Of a stretch of 64,000 bases of DNA, positions 1 to 46,652 are shown one piece after another. The notes beneath the pieces are model-generated. The model was not told the DNA's origin and did not search any database. It saw only the letters and a list, made by a program, of their open reading frames with translations. A program made the translations under genes and the position numbers. This stretch comes from Nitrosopumilus oxyclinae (lineage in GTDB: Archaea > Thermoproteota > Nitrososphaeria > Nitrososphaerales > Nitrosopumilaceae), in assembly GCF_013407165.1 (NCBI RefSeq), contig NZ_CP026994.1, positions 62,001 through 126,000 on the forward strand, written 5' to 3'. Position 1 is the stretch's first letter. The number at the start of each line of letters is the position of its first letter.

Positions 1-2220
1 TGGAAGGGTGCAAGCAACGTACCTGTCTTTAATAGAACTTCAACAACTGATGCAATTGATGTTTCATATGCTGTAGTTGAATTTACTGGTAAGAACTGGG
101 ATTTGCAAAGAATAGAACATTTAGGAACTGATATTCCTTCTAATGCAGAACAAACTGAATCAATTGATGATGTAGGTGATCTTTCTCGTGCTTTTATCTT
201 ACAAGCTCAGCAAAGAAGCCCCGATACTAATGATACAGATGGTCTTTGTGAAATGGGTGAGCAGGTATGGTTATCTGACACTGATACTTTATCATTTGCT
301 CACGATGCTGATACTGGTTGTGATTATGAGGGTCATAACATAAACGAAGTTGTATGGATTCTTTCTAACTCTAATGCACAAACTGGAAAGAAGATGATCG
401 TAGAGCATCAACAACCAACTCGAGCTCCAGGAGGATTAGAAGAAGATAATTGGCAAGTATCAATTAATTCTCTTACATATGGTACTGATGAGACGGCAAT
501 TCTTGGTTTGACATCAAACTCTGATGGTAGTGGTAGTGCATTTCCTAGAGGATGGGTTATTGCAGAACTTACTGATTCTACTACGGTTGATTTCTGGCAA
601 TCAGACTCTGATACACAACAACAAAAATACTCTTTCAGTGTTGTACAATGGCCTCGTTCAAAAATCATATCTTTATCACTTGCTGAAGATTTGGGATTAG
701 CTGACATTATCCTTGTAGACAAGCCATACACTGAATCTCTAACAATTTCTGATGTTGTTGAAGTTGTAAATGATGCTAGAGTTGAACTTGTAGAATCATT
801 ATCTCTAGTTGATAGCCCTGTATTTGTAGACAAGGACGGTCAAGTTCTATCTAATCTTGCTGAATCATTTTCATTTGATGATGGAACAGTATCTGTCTTA
901 ATTCTACCAATTAAACCACAAGAATCATTGTTACTAGTTGATTCTGTAGAATTTACTCATGATAAAACTCTCACACTTGTTGAATCATTAGTGTTTGATG
1001 ATGAAATTCCTATTAGTGAAGTATTTCGATCTTCAAATCCTGACTTTAAGACACAACATGGTACATTTACAATAAGTGCTGCATCTACTACTGGAACAAT
1101 TACTAGTTCTGGTGGTGCAAATTTTGATGTATGTACAGGTGACTGTTTCATTATGCACACAAGTACAAGACAAACAGGTTCAGGTGATACGACTAATGGC
1201 GGTGTTCAAACTCCAGATAACTTTATGACCCATGTGTCAAATGATGGTGGTTTAACTACTGCAGGTACTGTTACATTTGCAAGATCTGGTTCTACTAATG
1301 ATAACAGAGTTGCATGGCAGATTCTAGAATACATTGGTCCTGCAGGAGGTCCAAACGAGATGAAAGTATTAGATACAGGTATTGTTTCATTTGGAACTAC
1401 AACTGCTAATGTAGCAGGAGCTACAATTAGTGGAGGTGCAGCAGATGATAATGATGTCGCAGTAATTATTACTGGTGTTAGCTCTGATGGTGGTGCAACT
1501 GACTATGATTCTTCTCTTGTTACTACTGAGTGGAGTGGTGCAAGCAACGTACCTGTCTTTAATAGAACTGCAGTAAATTCTGTATCACTTGATGTTTCAT
1601 ATGCTGTTGTAGAATTTACTGGTTCTGCATGGAATCTTCAAAGAGTTGAAAAAGTTGGCTCTGATTCTCCTTCTCCAATACAAACACAATCAATTACGGA
1701 TGTAGGTGATCTTTCACGTGCATTTGTATTACAAGCTCAGCAAAGAAATGCAGATAACACTGCATCAGATGGTCTTTGTGAAACTGGTGAAAGAGTATGG
1801 TTATCTGATACTACAACTGTATCATTTTACCACGAAACTGCTACTGATGCTTGTACATATGATAGTAATATGAACAGAGTTGTATGGGTTCTTTCTAACT
1901 CTAATGCACAAACTGGAAAGAAGATGATCGTAGAGCATCAACAACCAACTGATCAATTAAACACTGTAGATCCTAATCCACCAGAAGAGGAGAACTGGCA
2001 AAGATCCATTAATTCTCTTACATATGGTATTGATGAAACTTCAATTCTTGGATTTACATCAAACTCTGATGGCACATCTACTAATTATCCAAGTGGTACA
2101 ATTGTAGCAGACCTTACTGATTCTACTACAGTTGATTTCTGGCAATCAGACTCTGGTGAAGAGCAATCTTATTCTTTCAGTGTTGTACAATGGCCTCGTT
2201 CAAGAGTAATTAGTATATCA
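1..2220 (+). repeat. Direct duplication of a ~510-residue module (1530 bp offset)
   Basis: Stretches around 1-40 and 361-420 recur almost base for base around 1531-1570 and 1891-1950. The copies therefore sit 1530 bp apart inside one reading frame. Degenerate SLxESLSLxD units (about 670-1015) separate the modules. Confidence 0.85.
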
Positions 2221-5200
2221 CCTGTTGAAAGTTTCTCATTTTCTGATGATGTATCAATTGATCTTAGATTAACTCTAAATGAGAATTTATCATTTAATGA
2301 TGGTACAGTTGAGACTATGAATGCAGTATCTGTATCCCTCACTGAGAATTTATCATTTAATGATGGTACAGTTGAGACTATGAATGCAGTATCTGTATCC
2401 CTAGATGAGTCTCTCTCACTAGTAGACGACATCAATAGAAACATACCTGTCTCTCTAACAGAGTCACTCTCCCTAGTAGATGACATCAACAGAACATTCA
2501 ACATCTCTCTAACAGAATCACTTTCACTTCAAGATACTATTGCCAAGACATTTACTGTATCACTAACTGAAAACTTGACACTAGTAGATGACATCAACAG
2601 AACATTCACTGTATCACTAACTGAAAACTTGACACTAGTAGATACTATTGCCAAAACATTCAACATCTCTCTAACAGAGTCACTCTCCCTAGTAGATGAC
2701 ATCAACAGAACATTCAACATCTCTCTAACAGAATCACTTTCACTTCAAGATACTATTGCCAAAACATTCAACATCTCTCTAACAGAATCACTTTCACTTC
2801 AAGATACTATTGCCAAGACATTCACTGTATCACTAACTGAAAACTTGACACTAGTAGATACTATTGCCAAAACATTCAACATCTCTCTAACAGAGTCACT
2901 CTCCCTAGTAGATGACATCAACAGAACATTCAACATCTCTCTAACAGAATCACTTTCACTTCAAGATACTATTGCCAAAACATTCAACATCTCTCTAACA
3001 GAATCACTTTCACTTCAAGATACTATTGCCAAGACATTCACTGTATCACTAACTGAAAACTTGACACTAGTAGATACTATTGCCAAAACATTCAACATCT
3101 CTCTAACAGAGTCACTCTCCCTAGTAGATGACATCAACAGAACATTCAACATCTCTCTAACAGAGTCACTCTCCCTAGTAGATGACATCAACAGAAACAT
3201 ACCTGTCTCTCTAACAGAATCACTTTCACTTCAAGATACTATTGCCAAGACATTTACTGTATCACTAACTGAAAACTTGACACTAGTAGATGACATCAAC
3301 AGAACATTCACTGTATCCTTAGCTGAAAACTTGACACTAGTAGATGACATCAACAGAACATTCAACATCTCTCTAACAGAATCACTTTCACTTCAAGATA
3401 CTATTGCCAAAACATTCAACATCTCTCTAACAGAGTCACTCTCCCTAGTAGATGACATCAACAGAACATTCAACATCTCTCTAACAGAATCACTTTCACT
3501 TCAAGATACTATTGCCAAAACATTCAACATCTCTCTAACAGAATCACTCTCCCTAGTAGATGACATCAACAGAACATTCAACATCTCTCTAACAGAATCA
3601 CTTTCACTTCAAGATACTATTGCCAAGACATTTACTGTATCACTAACTGAAAACTTGACACTAGTAGATACTATTGCCAAAACATTCAACATCTCTCTAA
3701 CAGAGTCACTCTCCCTAGTAGATGACATCAACAGAACATTCAACATCTCTCTAACAGAGTCACTCTCCCTAGTAGATGACATCAACAGAACATTCAACAT
3801 CTCTCTAACAGAATCACTTTCACTTCAAGATACTATTGCCAAGACATTCACTGTATCACTAACTGAAAACTTGACACTAGTAGATACTATTGCCAAAACA
3901 TTCAACATCTCTCTAACAGAGTCACTCTCCCTAGTAGATGACATCAACAGAACATTCAACATCTCTCTAACAGAGTCACTCTCCCTAGTAGATGACATCA
4001 ACAGAACATTCAACATCTCTCTAACAGAATCACTTTCACTTCAAGATGCTATTGCCAAGACATTTACTGTATCACTAACTGAAAACTTGACACTAGTAGA
4101 TACTATTGCCAAAACATTCAACATCTCTCTAACAGAGTCACTCTCCCTAGTAGATGACATCAACAGAACATTCAACATCTCTCTAACAGAGTCACTCTCC
4201 CTAGTAGATGACATCAACAGAACATTCAACATCTCTCTAACAGAATCACTTTCACTTCAAGATACTATTGCCAAGACATTCACTGTATCACTAACTGAAA
4301 ACTTGACACTAGTAGATGACATCAACAGAACATTCACTGTATCCTTAGCTGAAAACTTGACACTAGTAGATGACATCAACAGAACATTCAACATCTCTCT
4401 AACAGAATCACTTTCACTTCAAGATACTATTGCCAAAACATTCAACATCTCTCTAACAGAATCACTCTCCCTAGTAGATGACATCAACAGAACATTCAAC
4501 ATCTCTCTAACAGAATCACTTTCACTTCAAGATACTATTGCCAAAACATTCAACATCTCTCTAACAGAATCACTCTCCCTAGTAGATGACATCAACAGAA
4601 CATTCAACATCTCTCTAACAGAATCACTTTCACTTCAAGATACTATTGCCAAGACATTCACTGTATCACTAACTGAAAACTTGACACTAGTAGATACTAT
4701 TGCCAAAACATTCAACATCTCTCTAACAGAGTCACTCTCCCTAGTAGATGACATCAACAGAACATTCAACATCTCTCTAACAGAGTCACTCTCCCTAGTA
4801 GATGACATCAACAGAACATTCAACATCTCTCTAACAGAATCACTTTCACTTCAAGATACTATTGCCAAGATATTTACTGTATCACTAACTGAAAACTTGA
4901 CACTAGTAGATGACATCAACAGAACATTCAACATCTCTCTAACAGAGTCACTCTCCCTAGTAGATGACATCAACAGAACATTCAACATCTCTCTAACAGA
5001 GTCACTCTCCCTAGTAGATGACATCAACAGAACATTCAACATCTCTCTAACAGAATCACTTTCACTTCAAGATACTATTGCCAAGACATTCACTGTATCA
5101 CTAACTGAAAACTTGACACTAGTAGATACTATTGCCAAAACATTCAACATCTCTCTAACAGAGTCACTCTCCCTAGTAGATGACATCAACAGAACATTCA

Positions 5201-6942
5201 ACATCTCTCTAACAGAGTCACTCTCCCTAGTAGATGACATCAACAGAACATTCAACATCTCTCTAACAGAATCACTTTCACTTCAAGATACTATTGCCAA
5301 AACATTCAACATCTCTCTAACAGAATCACTCTCCCTAGTAGATGACATCAACAGAACATTCAACATCTCTCTAACAGAATCACTTTCACTTCAAGATACT
5401 ATTGCCAAAACATTCAACATCTCTCTAACAGAATCACTTTCACTTCAAGATACTATTGCCAAAACATTCAACATCTCTCTAACAGAATCACTTTCACTTC
5501 AAGATACTATTGCCAAGACATTCACTGTATCACTAACTGAAAACTTGACACTAGTAGATGACATCAACAGAACATTCAACATCTCTCTAACAGAGTCACT
5601 CTCCCTAGTAGATGACATCAACAGAACATTCAACATCTCTCTAACAGAGTCACTCTCCCTAGTAGATGACATCAACAGAAACATACCTGTCTCTCTAACA
5701 GAGTCACTACCACTAGATGACGGTACAGTTGATCCTACTGCAATCATTAACATCTCTCTAACAGAATCACTCTCCCTAGTAGATGACATCAACAGAACAT
5801 TCAACATCTCTCTAACAGAATCACTTTCACTTCAAGATACTATTGCCAAAACATTCAACATCTCTCTAACAGAATCACTTTCACTTCAAGATACTATTGC
5901 CAAAACATTCAACATCTCTCTAACAGAATCACTTTCACTTCAAGATACTATTGCCAAGACATTCACTGTATCACTAACTGAAAACTTGACACTAGTAGAT
6001 GACATCAACAGAACATTCAACATCTCTCTAACAGAGTCACTCTCCCTAGTAGATGACATCAACAGAACATTCAACATCTCTCTAACAGAGTCACTCTCCC
6101 TAGTAGATGACATCAACAGAAACATACCTGTCTCTCTAACAGAGTCACTACCACTAGATGACGGTACAGTTGATCCTACTGCAATCATTAACATCTCTCT
6201 AACAGAGTCACTCTCCCTAGTAGATGACATCAACAGAAACATACCTGTCTCTCTAACAGAGTCACTCTCCCTAGTAGATGACATCAACAGAACATTCAAC
6301 ATCTCTCTAACAGAGTCACTCTCCCTAGTAGATGACATCAACAGAAACATACCTGTCTCTCTAACAGAGTCACTCTCCCTAGTAGATGACATCAACAGAA
6401 CATTCAACATCTCTCTAACAGAGTCACTCTCCCTAGTAGATGACATCAACAGAAACATACCTGTCTCTCTAACAGAGTCACTCTCCCTAGTAGATGACAT
6501 CAACAGAACATTCAACATCTCTCTAACAGAGTCACTCTCCCTAGTAGATGACATCAACAGAAACATACCTGTCTCTCTAACAGAGTCACTACCACTAGAT
6601 GACGGTACAGTTGATCCTACTGCAATCATTAACATCTCTCTAACAGAGTCACTCTCCCTAGTAGATGACATCAACAGAAACATACCTGTCTCTCTAACAG
6701 AGTCACTCTCCCTAGTAGATGACATCAACAGAACATTCAACATCTCTCTAACAGAGTCACTCTTCCTAGTAGATGACATCAACAGAAACATACCTGTCTC
6801 TCTAACAGAGTCACTACCACTAGATGACGGTACAGTTGATCCTACTGCAATCATTAACATCTCTCTAACAGAGTCACTCTCCCTAGTAGATGACATCAAC
6901 AGAAACATACCTGTCTCTCTAACAGAGTCACTCTACCACTAG
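1..6942 (+). CDS. Giant repeat surface protein, N-terminal part (open at left edge)
   Basis: The frame is open from base 1, so the true start lies outside the window. An internal ATG at 103 is not the natural start. Two copies of a beta-rich module are visible. The first is partly cut off and the second spans about 1015-2215, with a DNA offset of 1530 bp. Each module carries a 'LSNSNAQTGKKMIVEH' segment. They are followed by tandem 18-residue units of the form SLTESLSLVDDINRTFNI with QDTIAKTFNI, RNIPV and 21-residue DDGTV variants. There are almost no Cys, aromatic or Lys residues in the array, and its Thr, Ser and Asp content suits an extracellular stalk or adhesin; this function is inference. 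The stop at 6940-6942 lies in a scrambled repeat unit, and the same frame resumes at 6979, so this is probably one gene with the next entry. Confidence 0.85.
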   Translation, partial: WKGASNVPVFNRTSTTDAIDVSYAVVEFTGKNWDLQRIEHLGTDIPSNAEQTESIDDVGDLSRAFILQAQQRSPDTNDTDGLCEMGEQVWLSDTDTLSFAHDADTGCDYEGHNINEVVWILSNSNAQTGKKMIVEHQQPTRAPGGLEEDNWQVSINSLTYGTDETAILGLTSNSDGSGSAFPRGWVIAELTDSTTVDFWQSDSDTQQQKYSFSVVQWPRSKIISLSLAEDLGLADIILVDKPYTESLTISDVVEVVNDARVELVESLSLVDSPVFVDKDGQVLSNLAESFSFDDGTVSVLILPIKPQESLLLVDSVEFTHDKTLTLVESLVFDDEIPISEVFRSSNPDFKTQHGTFTISAASTTGTITSSGGANFDVCTGDCFIMHTSTRQTGSGDTTNGGVQTPDNFMTHVSNDGGLTTAGTVTFARSGSTNDNRVAWQILEYIGPAGGPNEMKVLDTGIVSFGTTTANVAGATISGGAADDNDVAVIITGVSSDGGATDYDSSLVTTEWSGASNVPVFNRTAVNSVSLDVSYAVVEFTGSAWNLQRVEKVGSDSPSPIQTQSITDVGDLSRAFVLQAQQRNADNTASDGLCETGERVWLSDTTTVSFYHETATDACTYDSNMNRVVWVLSNSNAQTGKKMIVEHQQPTDQLNTVDPNPPEEENWQRSINSLTYGIDETSILGFTSNSDGTSTNYPSGTIVADLTDSTTVDFWQSDSGEEQSYSFSVVQWPRSRVISISPVESFSFSDDVSIDLRLTLNENLSFNDGTVETMNAVSVSLTENLSFNDGTVETMNAVSVSLDESLSLVDDINRNIPVSLTESLSLVDDINRTFNISLTESLSLQDTIAKTFTVSLTENLTLVDDINRTFTVSLTENLTLVDTIAKTFNISLTESLSLVDDINRTFNISLTESLSLQDTIAKTFNISLTESLSLQDTIAKTFTVSLTENLTLVDTIAKTFNISLTESLSLVDDINRTFNISLTESLSLQDTIAKTFNISLTESLSLQDTIAKTFTVSLTENLTLVDTIAKTFNISLTESLSLVDDINRTFNISLTESLSLVDDINRNIPVSLTESLSLQDTIAKTFTVSLTENLTLVDDINRTFTVSLAENLTLVDDINRTFNISLTESLSLQDTIAKTFNISLTESLSLVDDINRTFNISLTESLSLQDTIAKTFNISLTESLSLVDDINRTFNISLTESLSLQDTIAKTFTVSLTENLTLVDTIAKTFNISLTESLSLVDDINRTFNISLTESLSLVDDINRTFNISLTESLSLQDTIAKTFTVSLTENLTLVDTIAKTFNISLTESLSLVDDINRTFNISLTESLSLVDDINRTFNISLTESLSLQDAIAKTFTVSLTENLTLVDTIAKTFNISLTESLSLVDDINRTFNISLTESLSLVDDINRTFNISLTESLSLQDTIAKTFTVSLTENLTLVDDINRTFTVSLAENLTLVDDINRTFNISLTESLSLQDTIAKTFNISLTESLSLVDDINRTFNISLTESLSLQDTIAKTFNISLTESLSLVDDINRTFNISLTESLSLQDTIAKTFTVSLTENLTLVDTIAKTFNISLTESLSLVDDINRTFNISLTESLSLVDDINRTFNISLTESLSLQDTIAKIFTVSLTENLTLVDDINRTFNISLTESLSLVDDINRTFNISLTESLSLVDDINRTFNISLTESLSLQDTIAKTFTVSLTENLTLVDTIAKTFNISLTESLSLVDDINRTFNISLTESLSLVDDINRTFNISLTESLSLQDTIAKTFNISLTESLSLVDDINRTFNISLTESLSLQDTIAKTFNISLTESLSLQDTIAKTFNISLTESLSLQDTIAKTFTVSLTENLTLVDDINRTFNISLTESLSLVDDINRTFNISLTESLSLVDDINRNIPVSLTESLPLDDGTVDPTAIINISLTESLSLVDDINRTFNISLTESLSLQDTIAKTFNISLTESLSLQDTIAKTFNISLTESLSLQDTIAKTFTVSLTENLTLVDDINRTFNISLTESLSLVDDINRTFNISLTESLSLVDDINRNIPVSLTESLPLDDGTVDPTAIINISLTESLSLVDDINRNIPVSLTESLSLVDDINRTFNISLTESLSLVDDINRNIPVSLTESLSLVDDINRTFNISLTESLSLVDDINRNIPVSLTESLSLVDDINRTFNISLTESLSLVDDINRNIPVSLTESLPLDDGTVDPTAIINISLTESLSLVDDINRNIPVSLTESLSLVDDINRTFNISLTESLFLVDDINRNIPVSLTESLPLDDGTVDPTAIINISLTESLSLVDDINRNIPVSLTESLYH

Positions 6943-8883
6943 TAGATGGTACAGTCAACAGAACCACTAGTACACTAAGTGTATCCTCTAACAGAGTCAC
7001 TCTCCCTAGTAGATGACATCAACAGAAACATACCTGTCTCTCTAACAGAGTCACTACCACTAGATGACGGTACAGTAGAAACAATCAACACAATCATTGT
7101 ATCACTCACAGAAAACTTGACACTAGTAGATGACATCAACAGAAACATACCTGTCTCTCTAACAGAGTCACTACCACTAGATGACGGTACAGTAGAAACC
7201 ACTAGTACACTAAGTGTATCCCTAACAGAGTCACTCTCCCTAGTAGATGACATCAACAGAAACATACCTGTCTCTCTAACAGAGTCACTACCACTAGATG
7301 ACGGTACAGTAGAAACAATCAACACAATCATTGTATCACTCACAGAAAACTTGACACTAGTAGATGACATCAACAGAAACATACCTGTCTCTCTAACAGA
7401 GTCACTACCACTAGATGACGGTACAGTAGAAACCACTAGTACACTAAGTGTATCCCTAACAGAGTCACTCTCCCTAGTAGATGACATCAACAGAAACATA
7501 CCTGTCTCTCTAACAGAGTCACTACCACTAGATGACGGTACAGTAGAAACAATCAACACAATCATTGTATCACTCACAGAAAACTTGACACTAGTAGATG
7601 ACATCAACAGAAACATACCTGTCTCTCTAACAGAGTCACTACCACTAGATGACGGTACAGTAGAAACCACTAGTACACTAAGTGTATCCCTAACAGAGTC
7701 ACTCTCCCTAGTAGATGACATCAACAGAAACATACCTGTCTCTCTAACAGAGTCACTACCACTAGATGACGGTACAGTAGAAACAATCAACACAATCATT
7801 GTATCACTCACAGAAAACTTGACACTAGTAGATGACATCAACAGAACATTCAACATCTCTCTAACAGAGTCACTACCACTAGATGACGGTACAGTAGAAA
7901 CCACTAGTACACTAAGTGTATCCCTAACAGAGTCACTCTCCCTAGTAGATGACATCAACAGAAACATACCTGTCTCTCTAACAGAGTCACTACCACTAGA
8001 TGACGGTACAGTAGAAACCACTAGTACACTAAGTGTATCCCTAACAGAGTCACTCTCCCTAGTAGATGACATCAACAGAAACATACCTGTCTCTCTAACA
8101 GAGTCACTACCACTAGATGACGGTACAGTAGAAACCACTAGTACACTAAGTGTATCCCTAACAGAGTCACTCTCCCTAGTAGATGACATCAACAGAAACA
8201 TACCTGTCTCTCTAACAGAGTCACTACCACTAGATGACGGTACAGTAGAAACAATCAACACAATCATTGTATCACTCACAGAAAACTTGACACTAGTAGA
8301 TGACATCAACAGAACATTCAACATCTCTCTAACAGAGTCACTACCACTAGATGACGGTACAGTAGAAACCACTAGTACACTAAGTGTATCCCTAACAGAG
8401 TCACTCTCCCTAGTAGATGACATCAACAGAAACATACCTGTCTCTCTAACAGAGTCACTACCACTAGATGACGGTACAGTAGAAACAATCAACACAATCA
8501 TTGTATCACTCACAGAAAACTTGACACTAGTAGATGACATCAACAGAAACATACCTGTCTCTCTAACAGAGTCACTACCACTAGATGACGGTACAGTAGA
8601 AACCACTAGTACACTAAGTGTATCCCTAACAGAGTCACTCTCCCTAGTAGATGACATCAACAGAAACATACCTGTCTCTCTAACAGAGTCACTACCACTA
8701 GATGACGGTACAGTTGATCCTACTGCAATCATTAACATCTCTCTAACAGAGTCACTCTCCCTAGTAGATGACATCAACAGAACATTCAACATCTCTCTAA
8801 CAGAGTCACTACCACTAGATGACGGTACAGTAGAAACAATCAACACAATCATTGTCTCACTCACAGAGTTACTACCACTAGAT
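2272..8883 (+). repeat. Coding tandem array of 54- and 63-bp units with higher-order periodicity
   Basis: There are about 115 near-identical in-frame units of 54 bp (18 aa) or 63 bp (21 aa). Higher-order structure is clear. A rare variant, 'ctgtatccttagctgaaaac', occurs at 3311 and 4337, exactly 1026 bp (19 units) apart. Landmarks at 3015, 4041 and 5067 show the same 1026-bp step, with 216-bp (four-unit) sub-periods. From about 6990 the repeating block is 234 bp (18+21+18+21 residues). Near identity at third codon positions points to recent amplification. Confidence 0.95.
6929..6990 (+). other. Scrambled repeat unit with in-frame stops (probable consensus error)
   Basis: Compared with neighbouring units, this stretch carries small insertions and deletions that create in-frame stops at 6940, 6943 and 6976 yet add a net 6 bases, so the frame is preserved outside it. 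Bases such as 'cactctaccactagtagatg' look like an interleaving of the two standard unit types ('cactctccctagtagatg' and 'cactaccactagatg'). That is what a consensus of misaligned repeats would give. A real disabling mutation is the alternative. Confidence 0.7.
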
Positions 8884-11670
8884 GATGAAGATCTCAAGTT
8901 TGAAGGAACTTTAAAAATTAGAGTTACTAGAGATTCTCTATTGATTGGTAGCGCGGCATTCTCAATTACTCCAAATCCAATAACTGGAACTGGAAGTCTA
9001 AGTATTACAGATAATATGGGACTTGATGTAAACGGGACATTAGGAGAGATACAAATTCTGGAAGTCCCAGTAAGGGATTATGATATTGTAATGACTACTG
9101 TTCCAAGTGGAAATTCAGTAGATGTTGATGAGGCTACTATCTCAGTAGGTGGAGATGATGTAAATCCTCTTGTAGAATTTGAATTATTTAGTACTGCAAC
9201 TGATTTATCGATGCTTCCTCCACAACCATCAAAAACATCACCAAATCTTAATGCAACTCAGCTTGCAGTTCTAGAGGGATTTACAGCAACAGTTGTAGAA
9301 GGTGCATCCACTACAACAATCAACACATCAACTCAATCTCTAAAAATAATTAGAGTTGGTGTGAATAATACATCCGGTATACAGACTGCCATTTCACAAC
9401 AATCAAACATAAAATATGATAATTCTTATGCAGTTGGAACAAGTGGAACTGTTGTACAAAACACAATAAAGATTCCAAAATACACTCTCTCATCTAATAG
9501 CTCTCTAACTGCAATTATTCCTCTAGCAGTATCTATAGAACCATCACACCAAATAATTTCTACTCCACCAATCAAAAACATTGTTCCTGGAAAACAAATG
9601 ATATTCCCTGTAGAGTCAAGCCTTATTCCTAGCTTTGGAGGTATATCAAAACTTGATATCACAACAAATGCAAGTTCAACTTCTGTTGGAATCTTTACTA
9701 AGGATTGGGTGGTAATTGAGGTTGATGATGGTCACATTAATTCACCAACATTAGCAAGTAGTGGAATTACAAATGAATTGGAATTAGAAATTGATGTCAA
9801 ATACAGATATGAAGATGATGTAGTTGGATTTAACTTTGGTAATTCTTCTAACTTTAAATCAAAACCAGTTATGACAGTATTAGTACCAAAACCAATATCT
9901 ACTGATATTATCACACTTGCAAATGGATGTGCAGATGTTGAAGTTCATACACTTGTAGGTGGAGTATGGACTGCAGGAATTGATACAGTTTTATCAAATA
10001 CACCATCAACAATTAATTCTAATTATTGTGATGTAGAGTTTGAATCTGATCACTATTCCAAGAAATCAGTATCCTCAAAGAAGAGCTCTGGTACTGGAGG
10101 TACTGGAGGTACTGGAGGTACTGGAGGTACTGGAAGTACTGGAAGCAGTGCAGGAAGTGGCGCTGGTAGAAGTAGTGGAGGTACTAGTTCTGGCGGATTT
10201 GGAGGAATTCTAGCAAGTCCATTAACAATTAACGAGATTTCATATGACAAATGTTCAGAGAATATGGCAAGAATCATAGTTTCAAGTGATGCAGATATGC
10301 CACCAACTGTCAAAGTAACTACTGCAAAATCTGGAGTTGTATTTGCCAAATTAGCTGAAATCCAACCATATGAGGAACAAAACAAATTCATTACTGTAGA
10401 TAGATATCTCTATGAACTTCCAATTTCATCTGATGAGTCATTCATGTATGTATCAGTTACAGAAGAAATAGGAAATACATCAAACACTGTACAAGCTTCA
10501 GTTAAACTACTTTCATGTGAAGGAACTACTGTTATTGTTCCACTCCCAGATGATATATTCTCAGAAATTTCAGAGGCTGCTGCAAGAATATTTGATACCA
10601 AGATTCAGATTGGTAATGCAACATCAATTGATGCAGCAGAATCAGAATTCTTGTTTGTCAGCAGCCAAGATTTGACAGTTTCTGCAATCATTGATAGTGA
10701 AACACCACTAGAACGTGTAGAATTGAGATCAATTACAATGGGACAACCAGTTTCTGATTACATTGGAATCAAGATGGATATCACACCATTGTATGTTTCA
10801 AACTCAACCTATGTTGTAACTGGAACAATCCCATCATTCTGGATGGGAGAACCTGGAATGACTTACTGGATACACATTACTGATGAGGATAAAGCACAGA
10901 CAGAATCAATCCAATATAACATTGGTGCAAAACCAACTAGTGTATCTAATATTGCAGTTGAAGTTGATATGCCAACGATCAAGGCATCAGGCTCTATTGT
11001 AAAACCAGAATTCTATATGTTTAATGAGGATAAACCATCATATGGAATTGTATCACTGGTAGTAGATGGTGAAGTAGTCTCAAAGAGATCACAAATGTTT
11101 GGAACAGGTCAGACCCAAATTATCTTCAATTGGAATACACCAAAATCTGATGTATATGTTGAATATGATATTCAGGGTCTAGTTGAATTGTATGATAGCA
11201 AAGTCAGTACAGCAACATCAATACTTGCAACCCATCCAAAGACTGTAACAGTATCTGCAAATGAAATGCCAGCATTACAAGTAATACAGAGAGATGACAC
11301 AATACTTGCAGATCCTGCACTAGTCTACGCATCTAATGCTAATTCTGAACTTAGATTTACTGTAACTGATCCTCAAGGACAGTGTATCATTGGTGGTACA
11401 GATGAATGCCTAGTTAATGAAAGTACTAGAGGAAAACGTGGTGGAATGGAGAGTGTTCCATATGGTGACCAAATACTCAGAGTCAGATATTCAGGACCAG
11501 ACAATGCACTTGAGAGATTCTCAATTACATCAATTGATCCAATTGTAGGACAATGGAGTGTATCATTAGAAACTGAAGATGGATTTGTACAACAAGCACA
11601 TGCATCAGAAAGTGTAGATGTAAAAATCAAATATAGATATCACTCTGAAACAATTACTGCATTTTCATAG
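6979..11670 (+). CDS. Giant repeat surface protein, C-terminal part
   Basis: This is in the same frame as the preceding frame and probably continues it; the apparent GTG start at 6979 falls inside a repeat unit and is unlikely to be real. Residues 1 to about 635 continue the tandem repeats, here mostly alternating 18-residue (LVDDINRNIPV) and 21-residue (LPLDDGTVET...) units. After about 8880 the sequence becomes unique and beta-rich. A Gly/Thr/Ser linker with GTG repeats lies at about 10090-10200. The region after it (SPLTINEISYDKC onward) resembles C-terminal modules of thaumarchaeal cell-surface proteins as I recall them. No C-terminal membrane segment or sorting motif is visible. If joined to the previous entry, the visible part is close to 3,890 codons. 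A secreted, S-layer-associated or adhesive role is inferred only from composition and architecture. Confidence 0.85.
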   Translation: MYPLTESLSLVDDINRNIPVSLTESLPLDDGTVETINTIIVSLTENLTLVDDINRNIPVSLTESLPLDDGTVETTSTLSVSLTESLSLVDDINRNIPVSLTESLPLDDGTVETINTIIVSLTENLTLVDDINRNIPVSLTESLPLDDGTVETTSTLSVSLTESLSLVDDINRNIPVSLTESLPLDDGTVETINTIIVSLTENLTLVDDINRNIPVSLTESLPLDDGTVETTSTLSVSLTESLSLVDDINRNIPVSLTESLPLDDGTVETINTIIVSLTENLTLVDDINRTFNISLTESLPLDDGTVETTSTLSVSLTESLSLVDDINRNIPVSLTESLPLDDGTVETTSTLSVSLTESLSLVDDINRNIPVSLTESLPLDDGTVETTSTLSVSLTESLSLVDDINRNIPVSLTESLPLDDGTVETINTIIVSLTENLTLVDDINRTFNISLTESLPLDDGTVETTSTLSVSLTESLSLVDDINRNIPVSLTESLPLDDGTVETINTIIVSLTENLTLVDDINRNIPVSLTESLPLDDGTVETTSTLSVSLTESLSLVDDINRNIPVSLTESLPLDDGTVDPTAIINISLTESLSLVDDINRTFNISLTESLPLDDGTVETINTIIVSLTELLPLDDEDLKFEGTLKIRVTRDSLLIGSAAFSITPNPITGTGSLSITDNMGLDVNGTLGEIQILEVPVRDYDIVMTTVPSGNSVDVDEATISVGGDDVNPLVEFELFSTATDLSMLPPQPSKTSPNLNATQLAVLEGFTATVVEGASTTTINTSTQSLKIIRVGVNNTSGIQTAISQQSNIKYDNSYAVGTSGTVVQNTIKIPKYTLSSNSSLTAIIPLAVSIEPSHQIISTPPIKNIVPGKQMIFPVESSLIPSFGGISKLDITTNASSTSVGIFTKDWVVIEVDDGHINSPTLASSGITNELELEIDVKYRYEDDVVGFNFGNSSNFKSKPVMTVLVPKPISTDIITLANGCADVEVHTLVGGVWTAGIDTVLSNTPSTINSNYCDVEFESDHYSKKSVSSKKSSGTGGTGGTGGTGGTGSTGSSAGSGAGRSSGGTSSGGFGGILASPLTINEISYDKCSENMARIIVSSDADMPPTVKVTTAKSGVVFAKLAEIQPYEEQNKFITVDRYLYELPISSDESFMYVSVTEEIGNTSNTVQASVKLLSCEGTTVIVPLPDDIFSEISEAAARIFDTKIQIGNATSIDAAESEFLFVSSQDLTVSAIIDSETPLERVELRSITMGQPVSDYIGIKMDITPLYVSNSTYVVTGTIPSFWMGEPGMTYWIHITDEDKAQTESIQYNIGAKPTSVSNIAVEVDMPTIKASGSIVKPEFYMFNEDKPSYGIVSLVVDGEVVSKRSQMFGTGQTQIIFNWNTPKSDVYVEYDIQGLVELYDSKVSTATSILATHPKTVTVSANEMPALQVIQRDDTILADPALVYASNANSELRFTVTDPQGQCIIGGTDECLVNESTRGKRGGMESVPYGDQILRVRYSGPDNALERFSITSIDPIVGQWSVSLETEDGFVQQAHASESVDVKIKYRYHSETITAFS
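10088..10150 (+). repeat. 9-bp tandem repeat encoding a Gly-Thr-Gly linker
   Basis: The nine-base unit 'ggtactgga' is repeated several times and encodes GTG repeats. It passes into a GSS/GSG-rich linker before the C-terminal region of the surface protein. This looks like a flexible hinge. Confidence 0.8.
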
Positions 11671-44723: not shown

Positions 44724-46652
44724 ATGGTTAAAATAATTGGTATTGATTTAGGAACAAGTAACTCTGCAGCAGCAGTTGTAATGGGTGGAAAACCCACGAT
44801 TATTCCCGCAGCAGAAGGTTCGACAGTAGGTGGTAAGGCATTCCCATCAGTAGTAGCATTTTCTAAAGATGGAGATCTTTTGGTTGGTGAACCAGCACGC
44901 AGGCAAGCAGTTACCAATCCTGATAGTACAATAGTTGCTGCCAAAAGAAAAATGGGTTCTGATCATTTGTTTAAAGTTTTAGATAAAGAATACAAACCAC
45001 AACAAATTTCTGCATTCATTCTTCAGAAAATCAAAAAAGATGCTGAAGCATTTATTGGTGAACCAGTTAGTAAAGCAGTTATTACTGTTCCTGCTTATTT
45101 TGATGATAATCAACGACAGGCTACTAAAGATGCTGGAACAATTGCTGGTCTTGATGTTGTTAGAATAATTAACGAACCAACTGCTGCATCCTTAGCATTT
45201 GGCTTAGATAAAACAAAGGAAGATATGAAAATCCTTGTATTTGATTTTGGTGGTGGTACCTTAGATGTTACTATAATGGAAATGGGTGGAGGTGTTTTTG
45301 AAGTTCTTAGTACATCAGGTGATACACAGCTAGGTGGTACAGATATGGATAAAGTCCTAATTGATTTCATTATTGATGAATTCAAGAAAAAGGAAGGTGT
45401 TGATCTTTCTCAAGATTCAACTGCAATGACAAGAATTAGAGAAGCTTCTGAAAAAGCTAAAATTGAATTATCTACTGTGATGGAAACTGATGTTAATTTA
45501 CCATTTATTGCACATGATCCTTCATCTGGTGCAAAAAATTTAGAATTAAGAATTACTAGAGCAAAATTAGATGAATTGATTGGTCCTATTGTTGAGCGAT
45601 GTAAACCATCTGTACTCAAAGCACTTGAGGATGCAAAACTTTCCAATTCTGATATTAATAAAATAGTGATGGTTGGTGGACCAACAAGAATTCCACTAGT
45701 GAAAAAATTTGTTAGTGAATTAGTTGGTCAAGAATCTGAATCAGGAGTAGATCCAATGGAAGCAGTAGCGATGGGTGCAGCAATTCAGGCTGGAATTATT
45801 GCTGGAGATGTAAGTAGTGATATTGTTTTACTTGATGTAACCCCGCTAACATTAGGAATTGAAACATTAGGTGGTGTTAGAGAACCATTAATTGAAAGAA
45901 ATACTACTATTCCTACATCAAAGAGTAAAGTATTCACAACTGCAGCTGATAATCAAACAGCAGTTACAATCCATGTTGTTCAAGGTGAACGACCTATGGC
46001 AACTGATAACGTATCATTAGGAAGTTTTAATCTTACTGATTTACCACCAGCTCCTAGAGGAATTCCTCAAATTGAAGTTAAATTTGATATTGATGCAAAT
46101 GGAATAATCAATGTTACAGCAAAAGATCTGGGAACTCAAAAAGAAGCAAAAATTACAATTGAATCTACATCAAAACTTTCTAAAGATGAAATTGAAAAAT
46201 TAAAAGAAGATGCAGAAAAATTCTCTGATGAAGATAAACTAAAGAAAGAGAAAATTGATTTAAGGAATGAAGCAGAAAGTTACATTTACACCACTGAAAA
46301 ATTAGTTAATCACGATCTTAAAGATAAAATTTCACAAGAGCAAGGAATTAAAATTAGTGACGCTGTTAAGGAAGTTAAAGAAGTTTTAGATAAAGAGCCA
46401 GATGAATTAAAACCCAAACTTGAAGCATTACAAACATTGGTAAATGAAGTTACTACAGAACTTTACAAAAATGCATCACCACCACCTGGTGCAGAAGGAC
46501 AACAAGGTGCAGAAGGACAACAAGGTGCAGAAGGACAACAAGGTGCAGAAGGACAACAAGGTGCAGAAGGACAACAAGGTGCAGAAGGACAACAAGGTGC
46601 AGAAGGACAAACTAATGAATCATCTTCAACTGATGAACCAAAAACTAGTTAG
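44724..46652 (+). CDS. dnaK: Hsp70 chaperone DnaK
   Basis: This is the ATP-driven foldase of the Hsp70 system. The 642 residues include the nucleotide-binding domain ([43 protein letters not shown]-like [12 protein letters not shown], and MVGGPTRIP). The linker [16 protein letters not shown] precedes the substrate domain and a helical lid. The tail is unusual: residues 589-630 are seven tandem GAEGQQ hexapeptides, then a Ser/Glu-rich end. The gene lies between grpE and dnaJ. Confidence 0.97.
46488..46613 (+). repeat. Seven 18-bp tandem repeats in the dnaK tail
   Basis: The unit 'ggtgcagaaggacaacaa' occurs seven times in frame, encoding GAEGQQ; the last copy ends QT. The copies are identical at the DNA level, so the tract is probably length-variable between strains. 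Confidence 0.95.

Follow-up and report, generated by a model that had tools for sequence, protein, structure and literature searches.

The locus raises the question of what kind of gene carries more than a hundred near-identical coding units in tandem, and by what process such an array has been formed. The window analysed here is a 64,000-nucleotide stretch of the Nitrosopumilus oxyclinae genome (G000:C1:62001-126000), which is assembled as a single contig of 1,585,110 bp. The explanation that we consider likely is that the array encodes the stalk of a giant Nitrosopumilus surface protein, which resembles an adhesin, is exported and is anchored in the membrane, that the stalk DNA evolves by recurrent unequal recombination, and that one aberrant unit (6919-6987) is a consensus error.

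The gene was found to extend beyond the window. It starts with a TTG codon at G000:C1:54732, 7,269 bp to the left of the window, ends at window position 11670, and forms one frame of 6,312 codons with three stops, all of which lie inside the unit at 6919-6987. As a result of these stops, the window displays two open reading frames, 103-6942 and 6979-11670. Both the start outside the window and the in-frame stops had been missed in the preliminary description of this DNA, which had read the gene as that of a giant thaumarchaeal surface protein bearing a stalk of repeats; that reading was supported, with a gene of ~6,300 codons. The parts of the gene within the window are as follows.

Positions 1-2274, forward strand: coding region ahead of the stalk, in which an extracellular module occurs twice and stalk-like units are dispersed (frame open from G000:C1:54732 as far as window position 6942).
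Positions 2275-8886, forward strand: the stalk, an array of 119 units measuring 54 or 63 bp (25 DNA types in the unit parse).
Positions 2401-6918, forward strand: sub-array A, mostly 54-bp units, periods of 54, 216 and 1026 bp (autocorrelation).
Positions 6919-6987, forward strand: garbled 69-bp unit with in-frame stops at 6940, 6943 and 6976, located where sub-array A gives way to sub-array B (mosaic of seven pieces from unit types A and F).
Positions 6988-8859, forward strand: sub-array B, alternating 54- and 63-bp units, periods of 117, 234 and 468 bp (autocorrelation).
Positions 8887-11670, forward strand: conserved C-terminal region of ~929 residues (17-row alignment, 48-75% identity).
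Positions 10090-10143, forward strand: Gly/Thr-rich linker, 9 bp x 6, within the C-terminal region (Tandem Repeats Finder).

A signal peptide is encoded at the start of the gene, and two hydrophobic segments are located near residues 201 and 233. The signal peptide and both segments have counterparts at matching positions in the orthologues of two other genomes (G110 and G041), and the hydropathy of this conserved hairpin (residues ~200-260) suggests that it is probably a membrane anchor. The first 1,050 residues contain two stretches of Laminin_G_3 (E=1.2e-20; 74.6 bits, against a Pfam cut-off of 27.6), and the same domain was detected in the G110 orthologue (51.8 bits). Membership in this domain family points to a binding function, and the domain, taken together with the large biofilm-induced adhesion proteins reported in relatives (PMC12448741), suggests a role in adhesion. 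A module with the pattern GPNEMKVLDTG...SFSVVQWPRS occurs in two copies before the stalk (window 1-660 and 1030-2200), so that duplication has enlarged the head region as well. Also ahead of the stalk are three more perfect arrays, with units of 165, 30 and 42 bp, all multiples of 3.

At the other end of the protein, the C-terminal region is conserved throughout the genus. Its structure model (pLDDT 72, pTM 0.43) was matched by Foldseek to Ig-like chains at low TM-scores, and the region is predicted, with low to moderate confidence, to be a chain of Ig-like beta-sandwich domains. Its last Ig-like stretch (query residues ~804-885) is shared by a ~1,092-residue protein at G000:C1:1006201-1006392 (L063), and most Nitrosopumilus genomes encode this protein. 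Elsewhere in the window, a perfect 18-bp tandem repeat of 6.8 copies, GGTGCAGAAGGACAACAA, is located at 46488-46610.

The stalk had been described as about 115 coding units of 54 or 63 bp; the two unit sizes were confirmed, and the parse raised the count to 119. These comprise 95 units of 54 bp, 22 of 63 bp, the garbled unit of 69 bp and an end piece of 27 bp. They represent only 25 distinct DNA types and 20 distinct peptides. The two main types translate as LTESLSLVDDINRTFNIS and LTESLSLVDDINRNIPVS, and the 63-bp types as LTESLPLDDGTVE plus eight residues.

The order of the units was analysed for the nested blocks of 216, 1026 and 234 bp that had been described. The best lags in base autocorrelation were 54 (0.735), 216 (0.734) and 1026 bp (0.696) for sub-array A, and 468 (0.943) and 234 bp (0.932) for sub-array B. 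Larger duplications were delimited in sub-array A as follows.

Positions 3311-4336, forward strand: 1026-bp block of 19 units, first copy (97.4% identical to 4337-5362).
Positions 4337-5362, forward strand: 1026-bp block of 19 units, second copy (97.4% identical to 3311-4336).
Positions 5308-6206, forward strand: tandem duplication with a period of 441 bp (exact-repeat search; unit string HCCELABI twice).

The two 1026-bp blocks differ at 27 positions. The longest exact direct repeat spans 625 bp, with copies at 6988 and 7222 (period 234 bp), and the second, of 458 bp with copies at 5308 and 5749 (period 441 bp), was absent from the preliminary description. When 500 plain and 500 first-order Markov shuffles of the units were used as nulls, the identity between units four apart was 0.39 (shuffle maxima of 0.174 and 0.313, respectively), and that between units 19 apart was 0.23 (0.18 and 0.19), so that both lags exceeded every shuffle of either kind. 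The longest repeated unit string (10 units) lies within the Markov null (maximum of 14 in 500 shuffles) and was therefore rejected as a sole proof of higher order. The autocorrelation, the exact repeats and the lags bear out the three block sizes.

The composition of individual units revealed how they are related. The 95 units of 54 bp are built from eight first halves (heads) and ten second halves (tails) in 17 combinations, and 202 of the 528 informative site pairs show the four-gamete pattern. Units with the same peptide have codon differences of 1.2%, mainly at one Glu codon, and few point variants are restricted to a single unit. Such a pattern is produced when misaligned copies exchange sequence, and not by old repeats that protein-level selection alone has held alike. 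Recurrent unequal recombination, a process that had been suggested at the outset, is supported by the mosaic units and by a silent divergence close to zero.

The garbled unit at 6919-6987 is of a different nature. It consists of seven pieces that alternate exactly between unit types A and F with zero novel bases, and every one of 2,000 shuffles of its core needed at least nine pieces. Natural exchange is expected to give one or two switches. The unit is most likely an assembly consensus error, produced from two mis-stacked units where sub-arrays A and B join. Alternatively, the unit could be real and the gene truly broken, in which case the protein would stop at residue 4736 and the gene would be a recent pseudogene or encode a shorter form without the C-terminal region. 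The in-frame stops at 6940, 6943 and 6976 agree with this alternative, as do the frame breaks in the orthologues of G007, G059, G047 and G063, which make gene decay possible in some lineages. However, six parent switches in 69 bp without a new base are hardly natural, the frame resumes past the unit and stays open for 1,563 codons, all the remaining 54- and 63-bp units are intact, and the orthologues of G110 (5,212 codons) and G041 (3,338 codons) are open throughout. A genuinely broken gene is accordingly considered quite unlikely.

Since the unit has the appearance of a consensus collapse, the printed length of the array is unreliable and its true copy number uncertain. Consistent with this, the array breaks assemblies of other genomes: of 22 multi-contig assemblies, 15 have a contig end no more than 1.3 kb away on the array side, compared with 1 of the 22 on the opposite side (Fisher p=1.8e-5). 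Two genomes assembled as single contigs, G046 and G140, start near or within the array of the orthologue, suggesting that closure failed there. In a genome comparison of ammonia-oxidising archaea that covers cultured species, sequencing was by Illumina or PacBio (PMC7490402). With a garbled junction and contig ends at the array, the order of units inside each sub-array is credible but their total number is not. The risk of misassembly, which had been named beforehand, is real at this one junction. The blocks have their own distinguishing variants. That the higher-order blocks are largely an assembly artefact would fit with the collapsed junction and the breakage of most draft assemblies, but it is highly improbable, given the 27 differences between the 1026-bp copies, the singletons at several units, and the long arrays in separate single-contig assemblies of other species, two of them with independent higher-order periods.

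The C-terminal region was then used as a marker of orthologues and sought in 95 genomes of the genus and 151 of the family. It is present in many Nitrosopumilus and related genera. An alignment-based contig scan with this region detected 19 named relatives, including Nitrosopumilus and Nitrosarchaeum; the contig scan with a single C-terminal protein as the query gave no match. Among the loci that were read, glycyl-tRNA synthetase adjoins or nearly adjoins the gene in eight (G000, G046, G082, G002, G076, G059, G063 and G047), and the next gene is a different one in six (G110, G083, G041, G067, G012 and G007). The arrays of the orthologues are highly diverse, with 13 to 119 units per array between species: 60 bp x67 plus 54 bp x42 in G110, 240-bp blocks of four units in G007, 480-bp blocks of eight units in G059, and 13 units only in G041. 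The architecture had been called unusual, and this must be qualified, as independent higher-order arrays of the same gene occur in at least two other species. Homogenisation of the units is species-specific: mean unit identity is 0.59-0.97 within species versus 0.21-0.59 between species, while the C-terminus keeps 48-75%, indicating that the stalk turns over much faster than the ends.

Short tandem repeats were also observed near the start of the gene. A perfect 15-bp array of 14.5 copies (L016 8164-8380; G000:C1:54164-54380) sits in the interval that separates the giant gene from its upstream neighbour, ~350 bp ahead of the TTG, and unrelated arrays lie similarly far upstream in the orthologues of G110 (29 bp x8.5) and G041 (23 bp x16). 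In loci L051, L060 and L049 (G059, G047 and G007, respectively), N-terminal frame breaks in or beside short tandem repeats split the signal peptide from the rest; in G059, a 21-bp unit is 8 bp short. These breaks may represent assembly error, decay or switching.

The preliminary description had further envisaged phase variation or length variation of the stalk. An on/off switch of the protein through changes in repeat number would be in keeping with the frame breaks in the N-terminal tandem arrays of G059 and G047 and with the perfect array upstream of the start. The stalk itself argues against it: all intact units (54 and 63 bp) are multiples of 3 bp, as are the N-terminal arrays of 30, 42 and 165 bp, and therefore the gain or loss of units alters length and not frame. 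Moreover, the repeats that contain the breaks in the orthologues are long, perfect and prone to assembly errors. Phase variation is thus very unlikely, whereas variation of stalk length between strains is plausible; a second assembly of the same species was not found in the searches, which covered the contig scans and the 95 genomes of the genus. A broader and rather doubtful proposal is that of a hypervariable surface locus in marine ammonia-oxidising archaea, in which independent arrays in and just upstream of the gene would recombine fast, and stalk lengths, and perhaps expression, would differ within one population.

The fold of the stalk was predicted with AlphaFold2 for a 252-residue repeat piece, which gave a regular beta-solenoid with one unit per coil (pLDDT 85.6, pTM 0.74). 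Confident but false beta-solenoids have been reported for repeats modelled by AlphaFold2 (PMC11795689). A Foldseek search of the PDB with the repeat model gave no match at E<=0.001, and PDB sequence searches with the repeat and C-terminal profiles gave no credible match. A beta-solenoid with one repeat per coil is thus an uncertain assignment for the stalk. The best-scoring curated repeat family on the whole array was the LED repeat (Pfam PF20854; 82.5 bits, cut-off 59), which scored below the cut-off on the 252-residue piece (32.4 bits) and gave no match in the per-locus search of the G000 genome. This family was rejected because its score sums over the array, and plainly spurious families (PhageMin_Tail, UBC_like and Gam) score similarly; the match is probably an effect of repetition. 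The stalk contains 123 sequons, compared with 51 in residue shuffles. Glycosylation was nevertheless rejected as a general, conserved feature of the stalk, as the array of G110 has just 2 sequons in 2,280 residues. The exact array motif had no match in viral contigs.

Among known systems, the huge archaeal proteins are the closest in architecture. An N-terminal Laminin_G_3 is reported as their commonest arrangement, and their function as not understood (PMC11573180). The present protein resembles them in its very large size and in Laminin_G_3 toward the N-terminus, where it sometimes occurs in two copies in those proteins; here the domain scores above the Pfam cut-off in the N-terminal part. 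With respect to a size of at least 5,000 residues in one frame, the present gene has 6,312 codons with three stops, and that of G110 is open for 5,212. Higher-order repeats, their turnover and this locus, in contrast, are not among the features described in the available text of that report. The periscope proteins of bacteria are likewise surface rods with tandem repeats that are near-identical in DNA, for which length change by homologous recombination has been proposed (PMC9704523). The coding-DNA identity of the present repeats is similarly very high (25 types in 119 units; 1.2% codon differences), but periscope repeats are by definition individually folding domains of >50 residues, whereas those of this archaeon are units of 18 or 21 residues. 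Large adhesion proteins (~1,000-3,000 residues) of ammonia-oxidising archaea, induced in biofilms, are surface proteins of S-layer-bearing relatives with an irregular distribution (PMC12448741), and a repeat-rich thaumarchaeal adhesin of Ca. Nitrosocaldus cavascurensis lies at a contig join where closure was difficult (PMC5797428); the resemblance of both to the present protein is one of description.

In summary, the giant protein would be exported by its signal peptide and anchored by the hydrophobic hairpin near residues 200-260. The hairpin would be followed by Laminin_G/concanavalin-type and other modules (a head of the sugar-binding type), the stalk repeats of 18 or 21 residues and the Ig-like C-terminal region. 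Unequal homologous recombination would act repeatedly on units and blocks that are nearly identical and generate duplicated blocks, higher-order periods and mosaic units, always in frame, and stalk length would shift stepwise. In this way the stalk would be renewed in each species, between ends that are conserved.

Giant repetitive archaeal surface proteins are already known, with a function reported as not understood. The new points are that blocks are nested in an archaeal gene, that such a structure recurs independently in orthologues and that the stalk turns over fast between conserved ends. One gene of abundant marine ammonia oxidisers thus keeps its ends, and duplications of nested blocks rebuild its stalk in each species, a counterpart of satellite DNA within a protein-coding sequence. 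The array accounts for the breaks that many Nitrosopumilus assemblies show at this locus, and array lengths in published genomes are not to be trusted without long reads. If these lengths vary within populations, the gene would be an archaeal system in which surface variation driven by recombination could be tested.
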